A DNA stretch of 32,752 bases from Oscillibacter sp. (lineage in GTDB: Bacteria > Bacillota > Clostridia > Oscillospirales > Oscillospiraceae), in NCBI GenBank assembly GCA_022796315.1, contig JAAWIL010000003.1, positions 1 to 32,752 on the forward strand. The letters run 5' to 3'. Positions 1,939 to 22,280 of this stretch are shown in pieces. The notes under the pieces are model-generated. The model had not been told where the DNA came from, did no database searches, and worked only from the letters and a program-made list of their open reading frames with translations. The translations under genes were made by a program, and so were the position numbers. Positions within the stretch are counted from its first letter, which is position 1. Every line of letters starts with the position of its first letter.

Positions 1939-2577
1939 TTATCGGTGGCAGCTGGCGCTCCAGTGCGTGCGCTGGCCCGCCGCGGCGCAGACAGCATGGT
2001 TGCCATCACAGAAGCCGCTCTCGTGCCGGTAGCCGCAGTAGGCGGTGCCGTAGTGGCTGTGCTGGCCAAGGGTTGTGCAGCCCGCCACAGAGCAGAGGGC
2101 CTGGCAGTGTCCGTCGCAGAATCCGGTTTCATGGTCATAGCCGCAGTAGGCGGTGCCGGAATGGGTGTGCCGCCCCGTGACGGCGCAGCCCTCTACAGAG
2201 CACAGGGCCCGGCAGAGTCCGTCGCAGAATCCGGTTTCGTGGTCATAGCCGCAGTAGGGCGTGCCGTTGTGGCTGTGGGGGCCCACTGCGTCACAGTCCT
2301 CCACGGTGCACAGGGCCCGGCACTTCCCGTCGCAAAAGCCGCTTTCGTGGGCATAGCCGCAGTAGGTCACGCCGCTGTGGCTGTGCCGCCCGGCAAGGGT
2401 GCAGCCCTGCACCGGGCAGACGGCAATCGCGGCGGGGGTCTGAACGGTCTGGACGCTCTGGGTGTTTCTGCGGGGTCCGTTATGATGCCCATGACCATGG
2501 GCCAGCGCCGGCAGGACGAGGGACACGGCGGTTAAAACAACAATGAAACAGACGGGAACAAGCTTCTTGGATTTCAT
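1939..2577 (-). CDS. Secreted Cys/His-rich tandem-repeat protein, unknown function
   Basis: Signal peptide MKSKKLVPVCFIVVLTAVSLVLPALA followed by HGHGHH and four ~36-aa repeats C-x3-[GD]C-x4-G-x-H-[ST]-H-x-G-x2-YCGY-x-HE-[ST]-GFCDG. ATG at 2577 has aaaggagtc upstream. Confidence 0.85.
   Translation of the reverse strand: MKSKKLVPVCFIVVLTAVSLVLPALAHGHGHHNGPRRNTQSVQTVQTPAAIAVCPVQGCTLAGRHSHSGVTYCGYAHESGFCDGKCRALCTVEDCDAVGPHSHNGTPYCGYDHETGFCDGLCRALCSVEGCAVTGRHTHSGTAYCGYDHETGFCDGHCQALCSVAGCTTLGQHSHYGTAYCGYRHESGFCDGNHAVCAAAGQRTHWSASCHR
1987..2418 (-). repeat. Four in-frame ~108-bp coding repeats plus a degenerate C-terminal partial copy
   Basis: Protein repeats beginning CPVQGC, CTVEDC, CSVEGC and CSVAGC, spaced 36 aa apart. 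Confidence 0.9.
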
Positions 2578-2612
2578 GATGCACGACTCCTTTAGAATAG
2601 AATGTAATGAAA

Positions 2613-2641
2613 AGTATAGCACATCCCCAAGGGGGGCGCAA
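2613..2641 (-). promoter_or_regulatory. Promoter of the Cys/His repeat gene with a palindromic spacer
   Basis: Minus strand TTGCGC-N17-TATACT; the spacer contains the perfect palindrome CCCCTTGGGG. Confidence 0.55.
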
Positions 2642-2705: not shown

Positions 2706-5417
2706 TTACGCCTCCTCGATCTGGCGGGGAGGATGGAAGAAGGGAATTGCGGCGTCGTCCCGCCGCAGGAACAGCAGGCCGAATGACCCTGGGCCGCAGT
2801 TGCTGGCGATGGCGGAGGAGGCCTTTTGCAGGTAGACCCGCTCAAAGGGGCAGACCTGCTGCACCGTGCTTTGAATAAACTGGAGCTGATCCTCATCCAT
2901 GCCGGAGTAGGTGATGAACAAGATCCGCCGGTCGATGTTTCTGATGTCCTGGAGAGTCCGCTTGATGTATTTCTTCGCCGCGTGGGAGAAGCTGCCCGTC
3001 TCCATATGGCCCACAACCATTTTGCTCTTTTTCAGCACCAGTACCGGATGCAGCAGCAGCGCGTCGCAGAGGATCTGAATGCGTTTTGAGATCCGCCCGG
3101 TCTGACACAGCATATGGGTGCTGTTGACGATGAACGCGGAGGAGATGAACCGCTCCACCCGCCGCACGGCGGCCACGATCTCCGCCTTGGTGGCATGGTG
3201 CTCCGCCAGATAGGCCGCGCACAGCACCGACAGCCCCATGCTGCTGGAGAGGTGTCCGGAATCAATCACGGTGACATTCTCAAAGGACTTCGCCGCCTCA
3301 AAGGCGTTTTGATATCCCTCACTGACGTTCTTTGCCATGGTGATGTGGATCACGTTCTGCGCCTCCGTCAGCCTGCCCGCGAAGAACCGCTCGTAGTCCT
3401 CCACGTCAGGGGGCTGGGAGACGCCCTTCCGTCCCCCGGCGATGTGCATCAGCAGCTCGTCGGGCTTCAGCTCCTCCCCGTCCAGGAACCGGCCCTCCTC
3501 CGTGCAGACATAGTAGGGACACACGGAGATGTCAAAGACGCGCCGGAGGCTCTCCGGGAGGTCACAGACGCTGTCCGTGGTGACCAGGACCGAGCGCCGC
3601 TGCACCTGCTCAAAGATCAGGATGTCCTTTTCAATATCCGACTGGATGGCGTCCTCGCTGATCTGGACCAGTTCCTTCGGGAGGATGCTCAGCACCGCCG
3701 CCTCCAGCAGCGCGCCGCTGACGGGCTTGGCCAGATATCCGCTGAAGCCCTCCCTGCGGTAGAGGAGCTGGTTGTCGCTGCCGGCGTTGGCTGTCAGGGC
3801 GACCACGGGCGCGTTCTGGCACAGGCCGCCGGGCTGTGCCCGCAGGGCGTGGAGGCACTCGATGCCATCCATCTCCGGCATCATGTGGTCCATCAGGATG
3901 CAGTCGTAGTAGTGGTTCTGCGTCAGCTTTAGACACTCCGTGCCGCTGGAGGCCGTGTCAATATGGATTTTGGTGTCCGCCAGGAGCTTGCTGACCACCA
4001 TGAGGTTCATGTCGTTGTCGTCCACCACCAGGATGTGGGCGTCCGGGGCCTCAAAGCTCTGCCGGTAGGGTTCCCCGTCGCGGCGCTGGGCGCGGGAGGA
4101 CAGGGTGAAGGTGCCCAGATCGCTGGCGTCAACGATATCCTGCTCCAGGGTGACAATGAATGTGGAGCCCTTGGTGTAGACGCTGTTCACGCTGATCTCG
4201 CCGTCCATCAGATCCACCAGCTGCCGGACGATGCTCAGCCCCAGGCCGGTTCCCTCGATGAGGCGGTTCTTCTCCTCGTCCACCCGCTGGAAGGCGTTGA
4301 AGATGTAAGGGATGTTCTCCTTGCGCACGCCCTGTCCGGTGTCCTCCACGGAGTACCAGACGCGGACCCGGTTTACCGACAGGCGCTCGCACCGGACGGA
4401 GAGGGTGACGGAGCCCTTGCTGGTGTATTTCACCGCGTTGTTCAGCAGGTTGATCAGAATCTGCTTGATGCGCACCTCGTCTCCGCAGAGCATGCTGGGG
4501 ATGGAGGAGTCCACGTGGAGCTTGAATTCCAGGCCCTTCTCCTTGGCCTTGATCCAGATCATGTTGACGATTTCCGAGAAGAGGGCCCCGGTCTCATAGG
4601 AGACGTTGACGATCTCCATCTTTCCGGATTTGATTTTGGAGATATCCAGGATGTCGTTGATCAGGGTCAGCAGCAGCCTGCTGGCCCCCTGGATGTTCCG
4701 GGCGTTCTCGGCGATGTCCTCAGGGATGTCCTTCCGCAGGATGATCTCGTTCAGGCCGATGATGGTGTTGATGGGCGTGCGGATCTCGTGGCTCATGCTG
4801 GAAAAGAAGTGGTTCTCCGCCCGGTTCAGCTCTTCGATCTCCTTTTTCTGCTGCTGGGAGAGGGCGTTTTCCTCTTCGTACATCCGGGTCAGGAACAGCA
4901 GCAACACGCAGGTCAAAAGTCCCACCAGGACCACGGAGAAGGCGGAGTCAAAGAAGGAGCGCTGCTGGGTGCTCTGGATGATGTGCTCCGGAAAATAGAG
5001 GGCGAGGCCATAGCAAAGCAGGGTCTCCGCCGTACAGAGGGCGAAGAACACCGCCATGCGCTTCCCCTGCAAGGTCAGGCAGACGTAGATGAAACAAAAC
5101 ACAAACCACTCCGGCACGCCGCTGTAAAACCCGCCCGCCGTAAAAAAGCTGATGGGAAACAGGGTCAGCAGCAGCACGGTGATGGCCGTGGCCCCCGTAT
5201 GGATGCACTCCTTCCGGACGCTGTACTTCACAATCGCCGCCATGGCCAGCAGGCTCACAGCCAGGATCAGGATATTCCAGGGGTTCCGGCCCATGGGCAG
5301 GATGAATACCAGCGCAACCATGCAGGTGCCCGTTACAATCCGGAACATCCGGTCACGCAGGCTGATTCTGTGGTCGGAGATGATGTTAAACCATTTTTGA
5401 ATCACGCAGTTGTTCAC
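2706..5417 (-). CDS. Membrane hybrid histidine kinase with REC and C-terminal DegV (FakB-like) domain
   Basis: ~6 TM N-terminus; HisKA FFSSMSHEIRTPINTIIGLNE; HATPase (GTGLGLSIVRQLVDLMDGEI); REC (VVDDNDMN...DCILMDHMMPEMDG...KPVSG); DegV motifs VTTDSVCDLP, GVSQPPDVEDY, VTVIDSGHLSSSMG, CQTGRISKR, HPVLVLKKSKM, CGPGSFGLLFL. Confidence 0.9.
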   Translation of the reverse strand: MNNCVIQKWFNIISDHRISLRDRMFRIVTGTCMVALVFILPMGRNPWNILILAVSLLAMAAIVKYSVRKECIHTGATAITVLLLTLFPISFFTAGGFYSGVPEWFVFCFIYVCLTLQGKRMAVFFALCTAETLLCYGLALYFPEHIIQSTQQRSFFDSAFSVVLVGLLTCVLLLFLTRMYEEENALSQQQKKEIEELNRAENHFFSSMSHEIRTPINTIIGLNEIILRKDIPEDIAENARNIQGASRLLLTLINDILDISKIKSGKMEIVNVSYETGALFSEIVNMIWIKAKEKGLEFKLHVDSSIPSMLCGDEVRIKQILINLLNNAVKYTSKGSVTLSVRCERLSVNRVRVWYSVEDTGQGVRKENIPYIFNAFQRVDEEKNRLIEGTGLGLSIVRQLVDLMDGEISVNSVYTKGSTFIVTLEQDIVDASDLGTFTLSSRAQRRDGEPYRQSFEAPDAHILVVDDNDMNLMVVSKLLADTKIHIDTASSGTECLKLTQNHYYDCILMDHMMPEMDGIECLHALRAQPGGLCQNAPVVALTANAGSDNQLLYRREGFSGYLAKPVSGALLEAAVLSILPKELVQISEDAIQSDIEKDILIFEQVQRRSVLVTTDSVCDLPESLRRVFDISVCPYYVCTEEGRFLDGEELKPDELLMHIAGGRKGVSQPPDVEDYERFFAGRLTEAQNVIHITMAKNVSEGYQNAFEAAKSFENVTVIDSGHLSSSMGLSVLCAAYLAEHHATKAEIVAAVRRVERFISSAFIVNSTHMLCQTGRISKRIQILCDALLLHPVLVLKKSKMVVGHMETGSFSHAAKKYIKRTLQDIRNIDRRILFITYSGMDEDQLQFIQSTVQQVCPFERVYLQKASSAIASNCGPGSFGLLFLRRDDAAIPFFHPPRQIEEA

Positions 5418-5527: not shown

Positions 5528-8098
5528 TCACAGCTCGCCGATGTGGGCGCAGAGATCCCGGTATGCCTGCAGCAGCGCGGAGTGGTGTTCCAGGATGTAG
5601 TCTGCGTCGCCCTGCTTTCCGGCCATCTCCAGCGCCTTGGCCTGGGCGGAAAGGGTCTCCGCGCCAATGGTCAGGGAGGTGCTCTTCAAGGCGTGGACCT
5701 TGACCGCGTACTCCCCCCAATCGCCCTGTTCATACAGGGAGACCAGCTCTGAGATCTTGCCCGGGCTCTGGGTACAGAAGAGCCGCAGCATTTCCAGGTA
5801 AAAGTTCTCGTCTCCGGCGCAGTAGTTCAGGCCAATCTCCGTATTGACGCCGGCCTGGGTGAGCCGGCCGTAGGGAATCACGGATTCCTCAGCCGGCGGA
5901 GCGGCCGGGGGCTCCGGCGGATTCACCGGCTCCGGGGCTGCGGCGGGTTCCTCCAGGGGCGGCTTTATATCAGGGGGGTCCAACCGCGCCTGCGAAGCGG
6001 GGACAGGCTCCTTTTCAGGCGGCGGAGCTGCGGACTTGGCGGTGTACTGGATGCAGCTCTTGGGCAGGACCTTCCGCAGCACCCGTTCCAGCACCGTGCG
6101 CTCAATGGGCTTGGGGACAAACTCGGTGAACCCCTCGCTGCGGAACATCTCCCTGGCGCCGCTGACGGTATTGGCGGTCAGCGCGATCACCGGCAGCGCC
6201 CGGTACTTGCCGTTTCGGAGCTCGCGGATCTTTTTCAGGGTCTCCACACCGTCGAAGCCGGGCATCATGTGGTCCAGGAAGATGATGTCGTAGGAGACGC
6301 TGCTGCACCGGGCGATGGCCTCCCGGCCGCTGAGGCAGGTGTCCACCTCGATTCCATAGCTGCCCAGAACGCCCTTGGCCACCACCAGGTTCATCTCCTC
6401 GTCGTCCACCGCCAGGGCCCGGACGCCGACACAGGTGAAGGGCTTTCGGCCTGCGGCCTGGTCCTCCGCGAACCCGCGCTCGCCCATCTCCCCGTTCAGA
6501 AGGTTGGCGACCGAGATGGCGGAAAAGGGCTTGTGGATCACCATCAGACTGCTCCCGCTGTCCAGAGTGAACTCCCGCTCTGCGATTACAACGACACGGA
6601 GGGTCTTGGACAGATCCTCGTAGTACGCCTGGTCCTCCTGGTATTCCGCCTGGGTGATGAAGGCGTGGGTCAGCGCGTGATTGCGCTGGAGCTTGAGGAA
6701 GCCCTCGAAATTGTGGGCCTGATACCCGTGGACGCCCAGGCCCTCTACCAAGTTCAGAATCAGCCCGTCATAGTAGCCCCGCACCTCGTCACAGCTGTAC
6801 TTTTCCGGATTGAAATAGCAGGCGATGCAGAGCTGGTCCGCGTGGGTCAGGGTGATGCAGGGACGTTCGTCCACAACGCCCTGGGGGATGACGATATGGG
6901 CGTGCAGGCCCTGGCGGTCGTTGCTGTCAAAGTGGATAAAGCCGCCCATGGCGTTCAGGAGTCCCCGGGCAATGGGCAGCCCCAGGCCGAGCCCTCCCGT
7001 GAAGCGGCTGCTTCCGGAGTCCACCTGGTAAAAATCGTCGTACATCTGAAGGAGCTGGGAGTCCGTCATGCCGATCCCGGTGTCGTGGATGTCAATCACC
7101 AGATTGACGCCATAGCCCTCCCGGCGGGAGTCGATCTGGACGTTGACGCCGCCCTCCTCCGTAAATTTGATGGAGTTTTCCACCAGGATCTTCAGCACGT
7201 GGGAGATTTTCTCCGCGTCGCCCACCAGAACCGCGGGGATTTTCGGATTGATGTCAAACACGATTTCCAGGTGCGGCCGGTTGCTCTGCAGCGCGGTCAT
7301 GGTGATGACATCGTTCAGCACCGAGGTGATCATGTACTCTTCCTTGGCCGGAACCAGCGTGCCCTCCACAATCTCCGTATAGTCCATCATGTTGTTGATC
7401 TGGTTGGAAAGACGCTTTCCCGCCATCTCAATGGAGGTCATATCCGTCCGGATCTCCGGGGGAAGGTTTCTTCCCAGGGCCACCTCGCTGATGCCGATCA
7501 CCATATTGATGGGGGTGCGGAGCTCGTGAGACACATTGGATAAAAAGACGGCGCTCTGCTTTCCGGCCGTCTCCAGATCCGCGAATACGCGCGCATACCA
7601 GTTCCGCTGCGCAATCCTCTGCTTGATCCAGAATCTGGAAAGCGCCGTACCCCCAAAGACCACAACAGCACCGAGCCCCAGGCGAACCGCAGACGGGAGC
7701 TCCATGCCAGAAGAGATGGTATGAAGGATCAGAGCATGATACAGCAGCTCCAGCACATACAGCAGCTCGATCATGTGCAGAATCCATTTTTTGTTCAGCA
7801 TGAACAGCGCCAGGATCAGGATGCAGGCCGCAGCGGGGATGTCGAAGAGGGTGGCCTCGTGGATTCCAAAGAAAAAGAACTCCACCAGCATCAGTCCGGC
7901 GCATAAATACTCATAAAAGGCATCGGAGCCCATCCGCGCGATGTGCAGAAGCCACACGCTGAAGCAGCCCGCCAGCATCAGCGGGACCACCCAGAGCTCC
8001 CAGGCCAGAAGGACCACAATCAGGCTCAGCAGGGCGCTGAACGACGTGGTGACGACAGCCAGCAGCAGATGCCTGCTTGTCTGCTCGTCCGATCTCAT
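5528..8098 (-). CDS. Membrane hybrid histidine kinase with pseudo-REC, REC and C-terminal HPt
   Basis: TM N-terminus; HisKA FLSNVSHELRTPINMVIGISE; HATPase (GLGLGLPIARGLLNAMGG); REC (AVDDEEMN...DIIFLDHMMPGFDG...KPIERT); Pro-rich linker; HPt motif VHALKSTSLTIGAETLS. Confidence 0.92.
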   Translation of the reverse strand: MRSDEQTSRHLLLAVVTTSFSALLSLIVVLLAWELWVVPLMLAGCFSVWLLHIARMGSDAFYEYLCAGLMLVEFFFFGIHEATLFDIPAAACILILALFMLNKKWILHMIELLYVLELLYHALILHTISSGMELPSAVRLGLGAVVVFGGTALSRFWIKQRIAQRNWYARVFADLETAGKQSAVFLSNVSHELRTPINMVIGISEVALGRNLPPEIRTDMTSIEMAGKRLSNQINNMMDYTEIVEGTLVPAKEEYMITSVLNDVITMTALQSNRPHLEIVFDINPKIPAVLVGDAEKISHVLKILVENSIKFTEEGGVNVQIDSRREGYGVNLVIDIHDTGIGMTDSQLLQMYDDFYQVDSGSSRFTGGLGLGLPIARGLLNAMGGFIHFDSNDRQGLHAHIVIPQGVVDERPCITLTHADQLCIACYFNPEKYSCDEVRGYYDGLILNLVEGLGVHGYQAHNFEGFLKLQRNHALTHAFITQAEYQEDQAYYEDLSKTLRVVVIAEREFTLDSGSSLMVIHKPFSAISVANLLNGEMGERGFAEDQAAGRKPFTCVGVRALAVDDEEMNLVVAKGVLGSYGIEVDTCLSGREAIARCSSVSYDIIFLDHMMPGFDGVETLKKIRELRNGKYRALPVIALTANTVSGAREMFRSEGFTEFVPKPIERTVLERVLRKVLPKSCIQYTAKSAAPPPEKEPVPASQARLDPPDIKPPLEEPAAAPEPVNPPEPPAAPPAEESVIPYGRLTQAGVNTEIGLNYCAGDENFYLEMLRLFCTQSPGKISELVSLYEQGDWGEYAVKVHALKSTSLTIGAETLSAQAKALEMAGKQGDADYILEHHSALLQAYRDLCAHIGEL

Positions 8099-8457
8099 GC
8101 CTTCTCAAACTCCTGAGCCACCCGCTTCAGCAGCTCCTGGGGCTGATAGGGCTTTTTTAGATAGTTCACCGCGCCCAGCTGGATGGCGCTGCGCACGTCG
8201 TCTTCCTGGCTGGAAGCGGTGAGGAAAATGACGGGCGTGTCGGCGGCGAACTCCTTCATGCGGGCGAAGGTCTCGATGCCGTTCATTCTGGGCATCTCGA
8301 TGTCCAGGAGAACCAGGTCCATTTTCTCGCGCCGCAGCGTATCCAGCGCCTCGACCCCGGAATTGGCGAAAAAGACGTCATAGACCTTTCCCAGGATCAT
8401 TTTCGTCCGCATCAGATTCATATCGTCATCGTCTACTACCAAAATGCGCTTCTGCAT
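8095..8457 (-). CDS. Stand-alone response regulator receiver protein
   Basis: MQKRILVVDDDDMN...LVLLDIEMPRMNG...FLTAS...LKKPY; ATGA overlap of 4 nt with the downstream kinase start at 8098. Confidence 0.93.
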   Translation of the reverse strand: MQKRILVVDDDDMNLMRTKMILGKVYDVFFANSGVEALDTLRREKMDLVLLDIEMPRMNGIETFARMKEFAADTPVIFLTASSQEDDVRSAIQLGAVNYLKKPYQPQELLKRVAQEFEKA

Positions 8458-8582: not shown

Positions 8583-8617
8583 GAAAGGAGCCCCTTCCCT
8601 CAGGAGAGGCTCCCTTG
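8583..8617 (-). terminator. Possible terminator overlapping the 3' end of the lysR gene
   Basis: ggagcc/ggctcc inverted repeat followed by CTTT on the minus strand. Confidence 0.4.
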
Positions 8618-9529
8618 AATTTCATCCTGCAAAGTTTCCAGAAAACACTGGGCCACTTCGCTGAGGGGATTGCTGGCGTGGGTGATGGCGTAAAAGTACA
8701 TCATGTCGCCGCTGTCCAGGCATTTGGTGGAAAGGCCGGGGTAGAGATTCAGCACCCCCTTGTCGCTGACGCCCAGAAACACGGCGTCGCTGTTGGGCAG
8801 CAGAGAGTACAGCAGGGCCATGCTGGTCAAGAAGATGTTTTTGTGGTTGTTGGTGTAATGCAGAAAACTGAAGCTCGCCGCCTCCTGGTAGAAATCCATG
8901 TTGTGGGAATTTCCCCGGATTTGGGGAAACCGCATGAGGTCCTGCTCCGTGATGTGCTCCATTGTCTCCAGGGGGTGCCCTTTTCGGAAAAGCACATAAG
9001 GCTTGGTCTCGAAGAGCTTGGTGAAATTGATTTTCTTTTCAGAGAAGTAGGCCAGCTGGGCGGCGTTGCTCCGGGAGTTGGTGTGGATGATGCCGATGTC
9101 GGATTTTTTCTGCAGCACATCCTGGATGCATTCCTGCGTGTCCTGCTCTGTCACGGTAATGGCATATTTGTCAATCCGGCTGACCCGCTCCCGGTAGAAC
9201 CGAAGGAAGACCGAGGTGACAAACGTATAGCGGCAGGTGGAGATCCGCAGCATGGTAACGGCCTCGGATGGGTCGCTGGAGGAGTACTGGACCCGGATCT
9301 GCTCCAGCTCCATCAGAACGCCGCTGATGGAGTGAATGAACGCCGTGCCGGCCGGGGTGGGGATGATCCCCTTGCTGGTGCGCTCAAAAATCGTAAAGCC
9401 CAGTTCGGACTCCAGCTCCTTGATGGCGATGCTCAGCGTGGGCTGCGTAACATAGAGGGCGGCGGCTGCCCGGCTGATGGAATTTTGGCGGTATGCCTCC
9501 AGCACGTATTTGAATTGCTGCAGATTCAT
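8600..9529 (-). CDS. LysR family transcriptional regulator
   Basis: MNLQQFKYVLEAYRQNSISRAAAALYVTQPTLSIAIKELESELGFTIFERTSKGIIPTPAG, a classic LysR HTH; start set at 9529. Confidence 0.93.
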   Translation of the reverse strand: MNLQQFKYVLEAYRQNSISRAAAALYVTQPTLSIAIKELESELGFTIFERTSKGIIPTPAGTAFIHSISGVLMELEQIRVQYSSSDPSEAVTMLRISTCRYTFVTSVFLRFYRERVSRIDKYAITVTEQDTQECIQDVLQKKSDIGIIHTNSRSNAAQLAYFSEKKINFTKLFETKPYVLFRKGHPLETMEHITEQDLMRFPQIRGNSHNMDFYQEAASFSFLHYTNNHKNIFLTSMALLYSLLPNSDAVFLGVSDKGVLNLYPGLSTKCLDSGDMMYFYAITHASNPLSEVAQCFLETLQDEIQGSLS

Positions 9530-9720
9530 AGATTCCTCCATTTTTTGTTTCCGTGCCCCGCTGGGATCGGACTGAAGACATGATTTTGATATGATTGTAG
9601 ATAGTTTCCGCGAAGATTGCAAGTGCTTTTTCACAAAATGAAAAAGAATGAACCGGGAAACGAGAGAAAACGCGGTTGCTGGGACACAATTCGTGAGGAA
9701 TGGGGTGAAAATTGGTCATT

Positions 9721-16134: not shown

Positions 16135-16334
16135 AAAAAAATGAAAGCATAGGCTTTTGGCGTTGTTTTGAGAGATGCCAGGGAATGCGGATAGGGAATT
16201 CGCCGCGCCGAGGAAGGGATTCTTATTCCGGGGCGGCATTGTTTTGTGGAGATTCTCCCCTGCCGGGTATCCTGCCATTCTGCGGACAGGGCCTTGGAGC
16301 ACAGTTCAGTTTTAAAAAATTGAGGTGCAGAGAG

Positions 16335-18308
16335 ATGAAAAGTATCCGGAAAAAGATCACAGTGTGTCTGATGGCAACGGTTTTGATTGCTCTGGCAGCG
16401 GTGGGAACGTCCAGTATCGCCCTGAACTACCGGAGCACCCTGGCCACAGTGGACCAGATGATGAGCGAGACCGCAGTGCTGGCGGCGGAGCGCATCCAGC
16501 AGGAACTGACCGCCTACCAAAATGTGGCCATGGATACCGGCTGCATCCCCCAGCTGTCCGACGGGACGGTGCCGGTGGAGGAAAAGCGCGCGATCATTGA
16601 CGAGCGCGTCTCCATGCACGGCTTCCAGCGGGGCAACATCGTCGGCGCGAACGGCGTCAGCATCTTTGACGGGAAGGACTACTCCGACCGGGAATACGTG
16701 CAGCAGGCGATGAAGGGGAACGTTTACGTCTCCGAGCCCCTGGTCAGCAAGGTGACGGGGGAGCTCTCCATCATGGTGGCGGCGCCGCTCTATGCCGGCG
16801 GAAACCAGGGGTCCCGGATTGTGGGTGTGATCTATTTTGTGCCGCCGGAGACGTTTTTGAACGACATCGTCTCCTCCATCAAGGTCAGTCCCAACAGCCG
16901 GGCCTATATGATCAACAAGAACGGCGACACCATCGCGGACGCCACGCTGGAGACCATCACCACACAGAATGTGGAGCGGGACGCCCAGAGCGACAAATCC
17001 CTGCGGGACTTGGCCGCCATTCATGCGCAGATGCGCCAGGGGGAGAACGGTTTTGGCAGTTTCTCCAATGAGGCCGGCCCCTGGTTTGCGGCCTACGCCC
17101 CGGTGGAGGGGACGGACGGCTGGAGCGTCTCCGTTACGGCCATGAAGAAGGACTATCTGACGGATACATACGTGGGAATGCTGATCAACCTGCTGGTGGT
17201 CTTGGCCTCCATTTTGGCCTCGGTCGTGGTGGCGCTGAAGCTCTCCAGCAACATCAGCGTGCCGATGCGGGCCTGCGCCGAGCGGATGAAGCTGCTGGTG
17301 GAGGGCGACCTGGAGTCCCCGGTGCCCGAGACCGTGGGGCAGGATGAGACGGCGGAGCTGACCCGTTCCACGGCAGAGCTGGTGACGGGTCTGAACACGA
17401 TCATCAACGATATCGGGTATCTCCTGACCGAGATGTCCCGGCAGAATTTTGATATCCAATCCGCCCATCGGGAGGCCTATGTGGGCGGGTTCCAGGGAAT
17501 CCTGACGTCCATGCGCACGCTGAAGGTGGAGCTGAGCCGCACCATGCGCCAGATTGACGCCTCGGCCGGGCAGGTCTCCGCGGCCAGCGGACAGGTCTCC
17601 ACCGGCGCCCAGACCCTGAGCCAGGGGTCCATGATGCAGGCGAGCTCCGTGGAAGAGCTGGCAGCCACCATCAACGACATCGCTGCCAGCGCGAAAAAGA
17701 CCTCTTCCGCCGCCGAGGAGGCGGGCCAGTTTGTGGGCCAGGCCGGCGCGCAGCTGGGCATCAGCGTGGAGCACGTCAAGGAGCTGAACGGCGCCATGGA
17801 GAAGATCTCCCAGTCCTCTGAGGAGATCTCCAAGATCATTGCCGCCATCGAGAATATCGCCTTCCAGACGAACATCCTGGCGCTGAACGCCGCCGTGGAG
17901 GCGGCCCGGGCCGGCAGCGCCGGAAAGGGCTTTGCCGTGGTGGCCGACGAGGTGCGGAACCTGGCCAGCAAGTCCGACGAGGCCGCCAAGGCCACCAAGG
18001 AGCTGATCGAGGGCTCCATTGCCGCCGTCACCGAGGGCAGAGGGGCGGTGACCAGGGTGACAGAGTCCCTGGAGCAGACCAGCGTCTTTGCCGGCCATGT
18101 GACCGCGCAGATGGATATTGTGGTAGATGCGGTGGAGAAGCAGACCAGCGCCATCGCCCAGGTCACCGAGGGCGTGGACCAGATCTCCTCCGTGGTGCAG
18201 ACCAACTCCGCCACCGCCCAGGAGAGCGCCGCCGCCAGTGAGGAGCTCTCTGCGGAGGCCTCCAGCCTGAAGCATCTGGTGGACCAGTTCACGCTGGCAC
18301 AGGAGTGA
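16335..18308 (+). CDS. Membrane methyl-accepting chemotaxis protein (dCACHE-HAMP-MA)
   Basis: Start ATG 16335 after gaggtgcagagag; extracellular Cache-like region, [39 protein letters not shown]; signalling tip [37 protein letters not shown]. Confidence 0.95.
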
Positions 18309-18368
18309 CGCAGCCCTGACAGGGTCTCTGGAGCACGGACATCCTGCCTTGGGAATGACCGGGAGCTG

Positions 18369-18397
18369 TTGACATGTGGAACGGGTTCCCGTATAAT
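18369..18397 (+). promoter_or_regulatory. Perfect consensus promoter of the FIST gene with a palindromic spacer
   Basis: TTGACA-tgtggaacgggttcccg-TATAAT; 17-bp spacer containing GGAAC-GG-GTTCC. Confidence 0.8.
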
Positions 18398-18431
18398 TTG
18401 AGCGAGAAAAAATATGGGAGGGAACGGCAGC

Positions 18432-19487
18432 GTGAAACAGTTTTTTGGGATGAGCCGGAACGGCAATTTGGAGGAAGCGGTCCGTGGACTCCACAGCCCT
18501 CAGTTTATAATGCTGTTATCGAACGACACGCAATTTACAGCCCATGTGGAGGAGCTGGAGCGGCGCTTTCCCGGCGTTCCAAGCATCGGATGTATCGGGA
18601 TGAGCTATCAGACCAGCGTGGTGGAGAACGGCGTGGGAGTCATCGCGTTTTCGGATGGCGTCAAGGCTGCGGCCAACGTGCTGGAGCAGGCCTCCGTCAT
18701 GCCGGTCAAGTACATCCGGAGGCTGGAAAACGACGTGCAGGCGGTGGGCGGCTCCGGCAGGGACACGGTGTGCATTGACTTCTGCGCGGGGAACGACGCC
18801 TGTGTGCTGACCACCATCAACACGGTTTTGCAGCGGCAGGGAATCCCCCTGGTGGGGGGAACCGGCGACCAGGGACGGGTGTCCGCCAATGGGCGGGTGT
18901 ATCAGGACGCGGTGGCTTACGGAATCGTGCGGAACCAGAACGGAAGGGTGAAGACCTACAAGGAGAACATCTATCACCAGCTGGGGAATTACCGCTTCAT
19001 CGCCTCCAATACGGACCGGGCCAATTACATTCTGGGCTCTCTGAACGGAAAGCCCGCCAAGCAGGTCTATGAGAGCATCCTCCATGTGACCGATGAGGAG
19101 ATCCTGACCAGGACCTTCCAGAACCCCTTTGGCAAGATCAACGGGGACGATACCTGCATCATCTCGATCAAGGAGGTCCGGGGCAATGCCTTGGCCTGCT
19201 TCCGCCAGGTCAACGACTCCGACGTGCTGATCCTGCTGGAGCTGGGGGACTATCAGGCCATTACCAGGAATACGATTCAGCAGATCTGCCAGGAGTTCCC
19301 CAAGCGCTCCGCGGTGTTCTCCGTGAACTGCCTGTTCCGCTATAAGCTCTTTTCCGAGCGCAATTATATGCAGGCGTATCTGCGGGAGATGGCGGCTCTG
19401 GGGAGCCACGCTGGGCTTGTGGGATACGGTGAGCACTACAACAACCGGTTTGTGAATCAGTCCATGACCTGCGTGGTCTTTGAGTAA
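18432..19487 (+). CDS. FIST domain (FIST_N/FIST_C) signal transduction protein
   Basis: [52 protein letters not shown]-like C-terminal [17 protein letters not shown] start at 18432 with gggaggg upstream (the ORF extends to ATG 18414). Confidence 0.8.
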
Positions 19488-19498
19488 GGAGGGACAGG

Positions 19499-20443
19499 AT
19501 GTTATTTACAGGAAAGCGCCGGCAGGCACCGGAGCAGCCCCGCGCGGAGAAGAGTCTGTACCCGGTGCTCCACGTGGCGGACAGCCTGAAGGCCTACCAG
19601 AGAGAGCTGGTGAAAAAAGAGGTGGCCTCCCTTTCGGAGCTGAGCATGGTGGGCAGCGCCTTCTCCAACGTGGTGGCGGAGGCGGACCAGTTTCAGGAGA
19701 AGCTCCAGGATTTGGGACAATCCTTTTCCGATATTGACCAGACGGCAGGGGGATTCCGCCAGGTGCGGGAGGAGGTCGCCCTGGCTGTGACGGCGGCCCA
19801 GGACCAGATGGAGGAGCTGGAGAAGACCTCCTCGCAGGTGCAGCGGTCCTATGAGGAGATGGCGGGGATGTTCGCCCAGCTGCAGGCCGCCATTGATGGG
19901 ATTCAAAAGTGCATGGGCAAGATTGTGTCTATCGCGGATCAGACGGATATCCTGGCCATCAACGCCTCCATTGAGGCGGCACGAGCCGGCGTGGAGGGCC
20001 GCGGCTTCGCCGTGGTAGCGGTGCAGGTTAAGGAGCTGGCCAAGGAGATCAAGGTGCTGGCGGCGGAGGTGAATACCGGCGTCGGCGACGTGGAGGACCG
20101 GGCGGGACAGCTCAGCGGAAGCATTACCACCTCCCAGCAGCTCCTGGGCCAGAGCATGGATATTGTGGAACAGACCGACGAGAGCTTTCGCCGGATTATG
20201 GCGGCGTCCGAGGGCGCGGTGTCCGTGCAGACGGAGATCTCCAGCGTGATCAGCGCCTCCCAGCAGAACCTGCAGATTATCTGCCAGTTTTTCGACCGGA
20301 TCAAGGACCAGTATCAGGAGGTCATCCGGCATATTGCGCAGGCCAGCCGCCTGGGCACGACAAAGAGCGCGATGTTTGAGGATATGGACAATATGATTTC
20401 TCAGATTCCGCCGATGGTGAAAGAGGCGAAAGAGGGACGCTGA
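19499..20443 (+). CDS. Soluble methyl-accepting chemotaxis-like protein
   Basis: No TM; signalling tip [40 protein letters not shown]; aggaggg RBS. Confidence 0.92.
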
Positions 20444-20455
20444 GGCCAGCGTCCC
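20434..20455 (+). terminator. Hairpin overlapping the stop codon of the soluble MCP gene
   Basis: gggacgctg-aggc-cagcgtccc perfect 9-bp stem followed by ATTT. Confidence 0.55.
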
Positions 20456-20537
20456 ATTTCACAGTCTCCATGAATGGGAGAGAGCTCCTTACTGCGTTTG
20501 GATTGGAAGCTCGTTCTAGGAAGGTGGTGCCGCAAAG

Positions 20538-22280
20538 ATGTCACTGAGAGAAAAGATTGCTTCGTTTTTGTTTCGGGCAAGAGCGAAGGAGAACTTGGAG
20601 GATGGCGCGCAGCAGGAGCAGGCGAAGGCAGAGACTGCGGAGGCCCAGGAGGACAGCAGCGTCAACCCGGCTGTGCTGGAGCTGTCTCCGGAACATGCCC
20701 TCCACCGTCTCCGGGAGATGCGCCGGCAGGAGGCCGGCTATATGCCGGCCCCCAGAATTTGCCTGGATGAGGAGGGAATCCTTCCGCCAGAGCTGGTGAA
20801 GAAGGAACTGAACCGCCTGCGCTCCTTCCTGAGCAGCGCTTGCGGCGCACGGCTCAAGCAGGCCAAGGGAAAGAAGCCGGGCAAGAACCGGAAAAAGGAG
20901 AAGGAGGCGGGGGAGCCGGAAGATGAGGGAGATGCGCTGATGCTGGACGCCCTGCCCCAGTTCTTCCTCTCGGCGGATAAGCTCTATGCCTGGATGATTG
21001 TGCTGCCGCCTGTTGGAGAGGGACAGGAGCTGAACCGGGACCTGCTCTGGCGAGCGATGCGGGGACAGGGGATTACCTACGGCGTAGACGAGCGGCTGGT
21101 GGACCGGCTGTCTCACGACGACGAGCGGTACTTCCACCTGTATCTCATTGCCAAGGGAAAACCCGCCTTTGACGGGAAAAACGGCAACATTGTGGACTAC
21201 TTCCCCCGGGTTGTGGAGCGGGTGATGGAGGTGGATGAGTTCGGGCAGGTGGACTATGCCAACCTGAACCTGATCCGCAATGTCAAGGAGGGGCAGGAGA
21301 TCTGCCGCCTCATTAAGCCCACCGAGGGCGAGCCGGGCCGGACGGTGACAGACCAGGAGATTCCCGCAAAGAGCGGAAAGCCGGTGCCGCTGCCGAAGGG
21401 GCGGAACACCGAGATCAGCGAGGACGAACTCTCCCTGATTGCGGTCATGCCGGGGCATGTGGAATTCACCGGCCGGAGCTTCCAGGTAAAGCCGGTGCTG
21501 GATATTGACGGAAATGTGGACTTTTCCACGGGAAATATCAAGTTCCTGGGGGACATCAATATCAAAGGCGACGTGCTCAGCGGGTTCACAGTCCGCGCCA
21601 TGGGAGATATTCACGTAGGCGGCGTGGTGGAGGCCGGAAGCACCGTGGAGGCCGGCGGAGACCTGGTGGTGGTCAAGGGCATCCTGGGAGACGGCACCAC
21701 GGTGATTCGCGCGCACCGGTGCGTCTTCTCCAAGTATATTGAGAACTCCACCATTTACGTCCGGGAGAACTTGCAGACGGACTGCATCATCAACGGCAGA
21801 GTGTACTGTGATGGAGAGGTCCACGTCCGCTCTGGGCGGGGCAGCATTATGGGCGGCCGGATCTGGGCCGCCAAGCTGGTAAACGCCGCGTCGGTGGGGT
21901 CCCCGGCGGAGTGCAGAACGACCATCGCCCTGGGAGGCCTGCCCTGCACGAACTTCGAGCGGGAGGTCGTGCAGCAGGAGCTGAAGGACCTGGAGATGGA
22001 TCTGGAGAAGCTGGAGTGCCAGCCGGACAGCCCGGTCAAGAGCAGTCTTCTGGCCAAGCTGCGGGTGAAGCTGTCTACGGCGGAGCTGAAGCTGAAGCAG
22101 CTGGAAGATGATTTGGTGGACATCGAACAGGAGATGACGGAGAAAACGGCGGGACGGATGGAGTGCGGTGTGGCCTACCCGGAGACGGAGATCAGCATTG
22201 GCGACGAGATGCTCCGCCTGCGGCGGGAGACCAGACAGTGCGTCGCGAAGCTGGTGAGCGGGGAGATCGTGGTGATATAA
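20538..22280 (+). CDS. FapA/DUF342 family protein
   Basis: GITYGVDERLVDRL, GKPAFDGKNGNIVDYF, VKEGQEICRLIKPTEGEPGRTVTDQEIPAKSGKPVPLPKGRNTEISEDELSLIAVMPGHVEF, ISIGDEMLRLRRET; repeated Gly-rich beta-helix (GDINIKGDVLSGFTVRAMGDIHVGGVVEAGSTVEAGGDLVV). Confidence 0.92.
   Translation: MSLREKIASFLFRARAKENLEDGAQQEQAKAETAEAQEDSSVNPAVLELSPEHALHRLREMRRQEAGYMPAPRICLDEEGILPPELVKKELNRLRSFLSSACGARLKQAKGKKPGKNRKKEKEAGEPEDEGDALMLDALPQFFLSADKLYAWMIVLPPVGEGQELNRDLLWRAMRGQGITYGVDERLVDRLSHDDERYFHLYLIAKGKPAFDGKNGNIVDYFPRVVERVMEVDEFGQVDYANLNLIRNVKEGQEICRLIKPTEGEPGRTVTDQEIPAKSGKPVPLPKGRNTEISEDELSLIAVMPGHVEFTGRSFQVKPVLDIDGNVDFSTGNIKFLGDINIKGDVLSGFTVRAMGDIHVGGVVEAGSTVEAGGDLVVVKGILGDGTTVIRAHRCVFSKYIENSTIYVRENLQTDCIINGRVYCDGEVHVRSGRGSIMGGRIWAAKLVNAASVGSPAECRTTIALGGLPCTNFEREVVQQELKDLEMDLEKLECQPDSPVKSSLLAKLRVKLSTAELKLKQLEDDLVDIEQEMTEKTAGRMECGVAYPETEISIGDEMLRLRRETRQCVAKLVSGEIVVI

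Follow-up and report, generated by a model that had tools for sequence, protein, structure and literature searches.

FakB proteins depend on three elements: a Thr-Ser-His network around the carboxylate, one Arg needed for catalysis, and a second Arg through which they dock to FakA and the membrane (PMC8892158, PMC9136124). The two arginines have separate roles in FakB1, where Arg205 docks FakA and the membrane while Arg173 serves catalysis, and the R173A variant retains fatty acid exchange but is kinase-inactive (PMC8892158, PMC9136124). In FakB2 numbering we take the catalytic residue to be Arg170 and the docking residue to be Arg202, in agreement with the alignment to 4x9x. In the CREST paper DegV comes up solely because it is encoded next to hemolysin III genes.

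Here we consider a gene in which a DegV domain is joined to a histidine kinase and a receiver (HK-REC-DegV), found in a 32,752-nucleotide stretch of Oscillibacter sp. DNA (hereafter the window). The first-pass annotation of this DNA did not know the architecture from the standard literature, and no published description of an HK-DegV protein was found in the literature searched, a coverage that most subscription journals fall outside. Neither Pfam nor NCBIfam has a profile that covers the entire fusion. The protein is an apparently undescribed hybrid kinase that has recruited a FakB-type domain, now diverged.

The fusion protein and its spread

The fusion gene (Table 1) is a 903-aa open reading frame with a GTG start and no internal stop. 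All four of its Pfam domains exceed their cut-offs: HisKA (residues 202-265, 56.7 bits), HATPase_c (312-426, 93.4 bits), Response_reg (462-575, 81.3 bits) and DegV (610-884, 131.9 bits, cut-off 27 bits), the last covering profile positions 2-278 of 280. The DegV model TIGR00762 also matches, at 144.3 bits (cut-off 99.7). Reading frame, Pfam and structural model together uphold the first-pass view of one uninterrupted frame running from a membrane region through HisKA, HATPase and REC to DegV, in which the order of the DegV motifs had been given correctly. In the full-length model, five short membrane helices are followed by a sixth that continues as a long helix into HisKA, and a whole-protein fold search returned no match to this membrane region among the 50 matches listed. 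The linker between REC and DegV (residues 588-606, pLDDT <50) is modelled as flexible or unstructured, and its length ranges from 2 to 52 residues across the family.

AlphaFold2, proposed at first pass as a check, modelled the DegV part confidently from a 67-sequence family alignment (mean pLDDT 93.8, pTM 0.91). The best PDB matches of this model are DegV/FakB structures (Foldseek, E 2.5e-26, TM 0.80-0.83), and the window protein has both the DegV fold and the full-length profile match of a FakB. The kinase portion is that of a hybrid kinase, with the HisKA His, the N/G1/G2 boxes and the REC Asp/Thr/Lys present in 80/80; 14 of 15 catalytic and box positions checked are invariant in 80/80 and the remaining one (326) is N, T or S.

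Table 1. Features of the fusion locus, with positions in the window
Feature	Coordinates	Strand	Basis
HK-REC-DegV fusion protein, 903 aa	2706..5417	-	ORF + Pfam
Diverged DegV, Ser61/Ser93/Asn266 (FakB2 numbering), FakA-docking Arg lost	2766..3590	-	Pfam, alignment, model, fold search
Receiver domain, Asp510/Thr542/Lys564 invariant, Tyr561 in 78/80	3693..4034	-	Pfam + alignment
HATPase_c, N/G1/G2 boxes	4140..4484	-	Pfam + residue alignment
HisKA, phosphoacceptor His210	4623..4814	-	Pfam; His invariant 80/80
Membrane region, ~six TM helices, residues ~20-181, no Pfam family	4875..5360	-	Full-length model
Partner hybrid kinase: TM, HisKA, HATPase, REC, Hpt (Hpt ~5570-5794)	5528..8098	-	Pfam
Stand-alone receiver, 120 aa, 4-base overlap with partner kinase gene	8095..8457	-	Pfam
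LysR gene beside kinase/receiver genes	8600-9634		

A scan of genome contigs found the fusion at 80 further, public-genome loci. These lie in independent assemblies, isolates included, which rules out the artefact of an assembly join or frameshift between REC and DegV that the first-pass annotation had named as fatal to its reading. Together with the window's locus and second copies they yield 84 full-length frames (>700 aa) with a kinase and a DegV part. The only hosts found are Clostridia, namely gut and rumen Lachnospiraceae and Oscillospiraceae (isolates include Schaedlerella arabinosiphila, Butyrivibrio spp., Anaerotruncus and Neglectibacter), and the fusion was not seen in sampled genomes of the phylum's other classes. 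One record titled Alistipes groups with the Lachnospiraceae copies and may be a binning error. The DegV signature was detected in 14 of the 86 genomes of the window's genus, at full length in 13 and partially in one.

A tree was built from DegV domains of 97 fusions and 24 stand-alone proteins; all fusions fall on one side of a branch with support of 100, and hence one origin is enough to account for them. The Oscillospiraceae fusions are nested among those of Lachnospiraceae, and the copy from G020, which belongs to the window's genus, falls inside a Lachnospiraceae group; these placements point to horizontal transfer. Two loci hold two complete kinase and HK-REC-DegV pairs in tandem (L059, 5327-18540; L066, 2009-14467). 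The copy at L122 has no membrane region and a degenerate DegV pocket, with NTGAE for NCGPG, and is followed by a double-receiver gene.

The partner kinase and the adjacent receiver

A second hybrid kinase precedes the fusion in 77/80 public loci, the other three being two contig edges and L086. Among 60 relatives this partner occurs in precisely the seven genomes that carry the fusion (7/7 vs 0/53; Fisher p 2.6e-9). All 77 readable pairs possess a single Hpt, which belongs to the partner in 67 of them and to the fusion in the other 10, and the active-site His is present in 64/67 aligned partner Hpts; the window's unit likewise includes an Hpt with this His (Pfam Hpt in the partner). Residues ~407-560 of the partner kinase, a stretch of ~150 aa between HATPase and REC without a Pfam match, are probably a degenerate receiver.

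Fusions of ~1145 aa carry the Hpt and ~90 more residues behind DegV (L079, L081-L088, L090 and L093), and their partner kinase has no Hpt wherever it is readable, which is at all of these loci but L086. The ten loci with the Hpt on the fusion, together with L086 and L120, form one clade in the tree, so that the Hpt switch amounts to one evolutionary change. The fusion's Hpt is closest to the Hpts of further hybrid kinases in the same clusters and not to that of the partner gene, which rules out a simple move from partner to fusion. As the switch is a single event and the Hpt on the fusion resembles those of other kinases in the cluster, the evidence that the pair shares one Hpt is weaker than the numbers imply.

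Across loci, a receiver gene is usually found directly next to the partner kinase. In the window's clade the adjacent receiver has ~120 aa and no output domain, and no HD-GYP or GGDEF receiver lies next to the pair there. At divergent loci it carries HD-GYP in 19 cases and GGDEF without HD-GYP in 2 (Pfam), which makes c-di-GMP turnover, rather than DegV, the likely output of the relay in those relatives; DegV is therefore not required as an output. The source genome encodes one HD-GYP protein, a 709-aa frame also matching receiver and GGDEF, beside another hybrid kinase (G000:C193 22087-26626), and we conjecture that it is a target in trans of the window relay. The earlier statement that a DNA-binding output is lacking from the cluster is true of the kinase genes; it missed the stand-alone receiver and the partner's Hpt, and a LysR gene adjoins.

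Elsewhere in the window, 1939-2622 (minus strand) encodes a 227-aa secreted-looking Cys/His-rich protein with about four repeats containing CGYxHExGFCDG, which has no Pfam match and is not conserved beside the fusion at other loci. Two chemoreceptor-type MCP genes, a FIST sensor protein and FapA lie side by side at 16185-22280.

The diverged pocket and the role of DegV

Residues were compared between 98 fusions and 22 stand-alone DegVs, the latter mostly of the same order. The docking-Arg column is two positions off 4x9x at a local gap, and was taken from the stand-alones (YRG) and the fusion residues aligned with them. This Arg is present in 22/22 stand-alones vs 2/98 fusions, with Thr in the window protein, and the catalytic Arg in 22/22 vs 44/98, with Arg in the window protein. 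Position 266 is Asn in 92/98 fusions vs His in 20/22 stand-alones, position 61 is Ser in 79/98 vs Thr in 22/22, and Ser93 is found in 70/98 vs 21/22; Cys267 is held in 84/98 fusions. In some deep branches of the family, Ser93 and position 61 are not constant. A Ser-Ser-Asn triad is present in the window protein and in 66/98 fusions, and the Thr61-Ser93-His266 network is not present in the window protein as such; with Ser-Ser-Asn in place of Thr-Ser-His, most of the polar positions that bind the carboxylate persist, and their polar character is partly retained. From the residues, this is the pattern one would expect of a domain released from FakA and still constrained at the pocket mouth.

The explanation we favour, at about even chances, is a two-kinase relay with DegV as a diverged ligand-binding sensor domain. 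The fusion would form one half of this phosphorelay, in which it and the partner kinase may pass phosphate via the pair's one Hpt to the neighbouring receiver. Its DegV part, cut loose from FakA chemistry, would be a FakB-derived cytosolic input that follows the receiver on a flexible tether. It most likely informs the kinase or receiver of a hydrophobic carboxylate ligand, whether one that bears an acyl chain or another. The tether may make the membrane-docking patch of FakB dispensable, and so explain the lost docking Arg. The first-pass suggestion of a cytosolic sensor fits this evidence, with a fatty acid as the assumed ligand.

Some observations count against the favoured explanation: Ser93 and position 61 differ in some deep branches, and the receiver in the window itself is devoid of an output domain. 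Counting against a sensor role, DegV sits after REC, the usual place of an effector, and REC retains an output-type switch pair. These last two features argue for DegV as the output, where phosphorylation of REC would switch lipid binding or release and DegV would act as a gated sink or carrier unlinked to FakA: the Thr/Tyr pair (80/80 and 78/80) is typical of output receivers, its Tyr position varying in relay receivers such as CckA's (PMC9981736), and the DegV fold is intact in the AlphaFold2 model. The first-pass annotation had called DegV the most plausible effector because it presumed no other output, and domain order and switch pair do speak for this; the operon, however, has an Hpt and receiver relay of its own, and relatives possess a separate output protein. 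As the FakA/membrane Arg is also lost in 96/98 and the REC-DegV linker is flexible and variable in length, we regard an output role as unlikely. An acyl carrier delivering lipid to FakA under control of phosphorylation, also proposed at first pass, is disfavoured in its Fak form by the absent docking Arg and the unconserved catalytic Arg.

DegV might also have ceased to bind a ligand and instead be a module for dimerisation or docking that, for instance, links both kinases. The obligate partner kinase, the lower conservation of DegV than of the kinase (mean identity 0.54 vs 0.75) and the drift of pocket residues in deep branches are all consistent with this; Asn266 and Cys267 are nevertheless held alongside Ser61 and Ser93, which speaks for a working pocket, and we consider a ligand-free module improbable. 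An ordinary FakB that is merely tethered and still serves FakA would agree with the DegV match above the Pfam cut-off and with the FakA-like protein encoded in the source genome. Against it stands the loss of the docking Arg and, in 54/98, of the catalytic Arg, both of which the genome's own stand-alone DegVs retain; we think it very improbable, and on the same residues reject an ordinary FakB fused by chance.

Returning to the sensor reading, a broader proposal can be put forward tentatively, and with more doubt than belief: the fusions may be a new class of intracellular acyl-chain receptors in gut and rumen Clostridia, in which FakB was recruited once, became FakA-free, and makes a two-kinase relay that sets c-di-GMP responsive to the state of fatty acids or membrane lipids. 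If the sensor reading is true, phosphorelay signalling and the control of c-di-GMP would be tied to lipid status. With ~80 species-level genomes, a fixed partner and diagnostic changes in a well-known lipid pocket, intracellular fatty-acid sensing in gut Clostridia becomes directly testable. The family is also a caution that the annotation 'DegV family' does not by itself imply a FakA partner.

Comparison with known systems

The fusion's C-terminal domain resembles FakB/DegV proteins (PF02645; S. aureus FakB1 and FakB2, T. thermophilus 2dt8) in its fold (TM ~0.8), its full-length domain and, in most members, Ser93. It differs from them in being joined to a kinase, in having lost the docking Arg, in an unconserved catalytic Arg, and in the changes of His266 to Asn and Thr61 to Ser. 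Up to REC, its catalytic residues and domain order are those of hybrid histidine kinases such as BarA, TorS and GacS; unlike these, it ends in DegV and has a membrane region of six helices that matches no Pfam family. The unit as a whole, with two hybrid kinases, one Hpt and, in relatives, an HD-GYP or GGDEF receiver, is like the multi-kinase relays that converge on c-di-GMP enzymes, but a domain of a lipid-binding protein is built into one of its kinases, and the receiver of the window's clade stands without an output domain.
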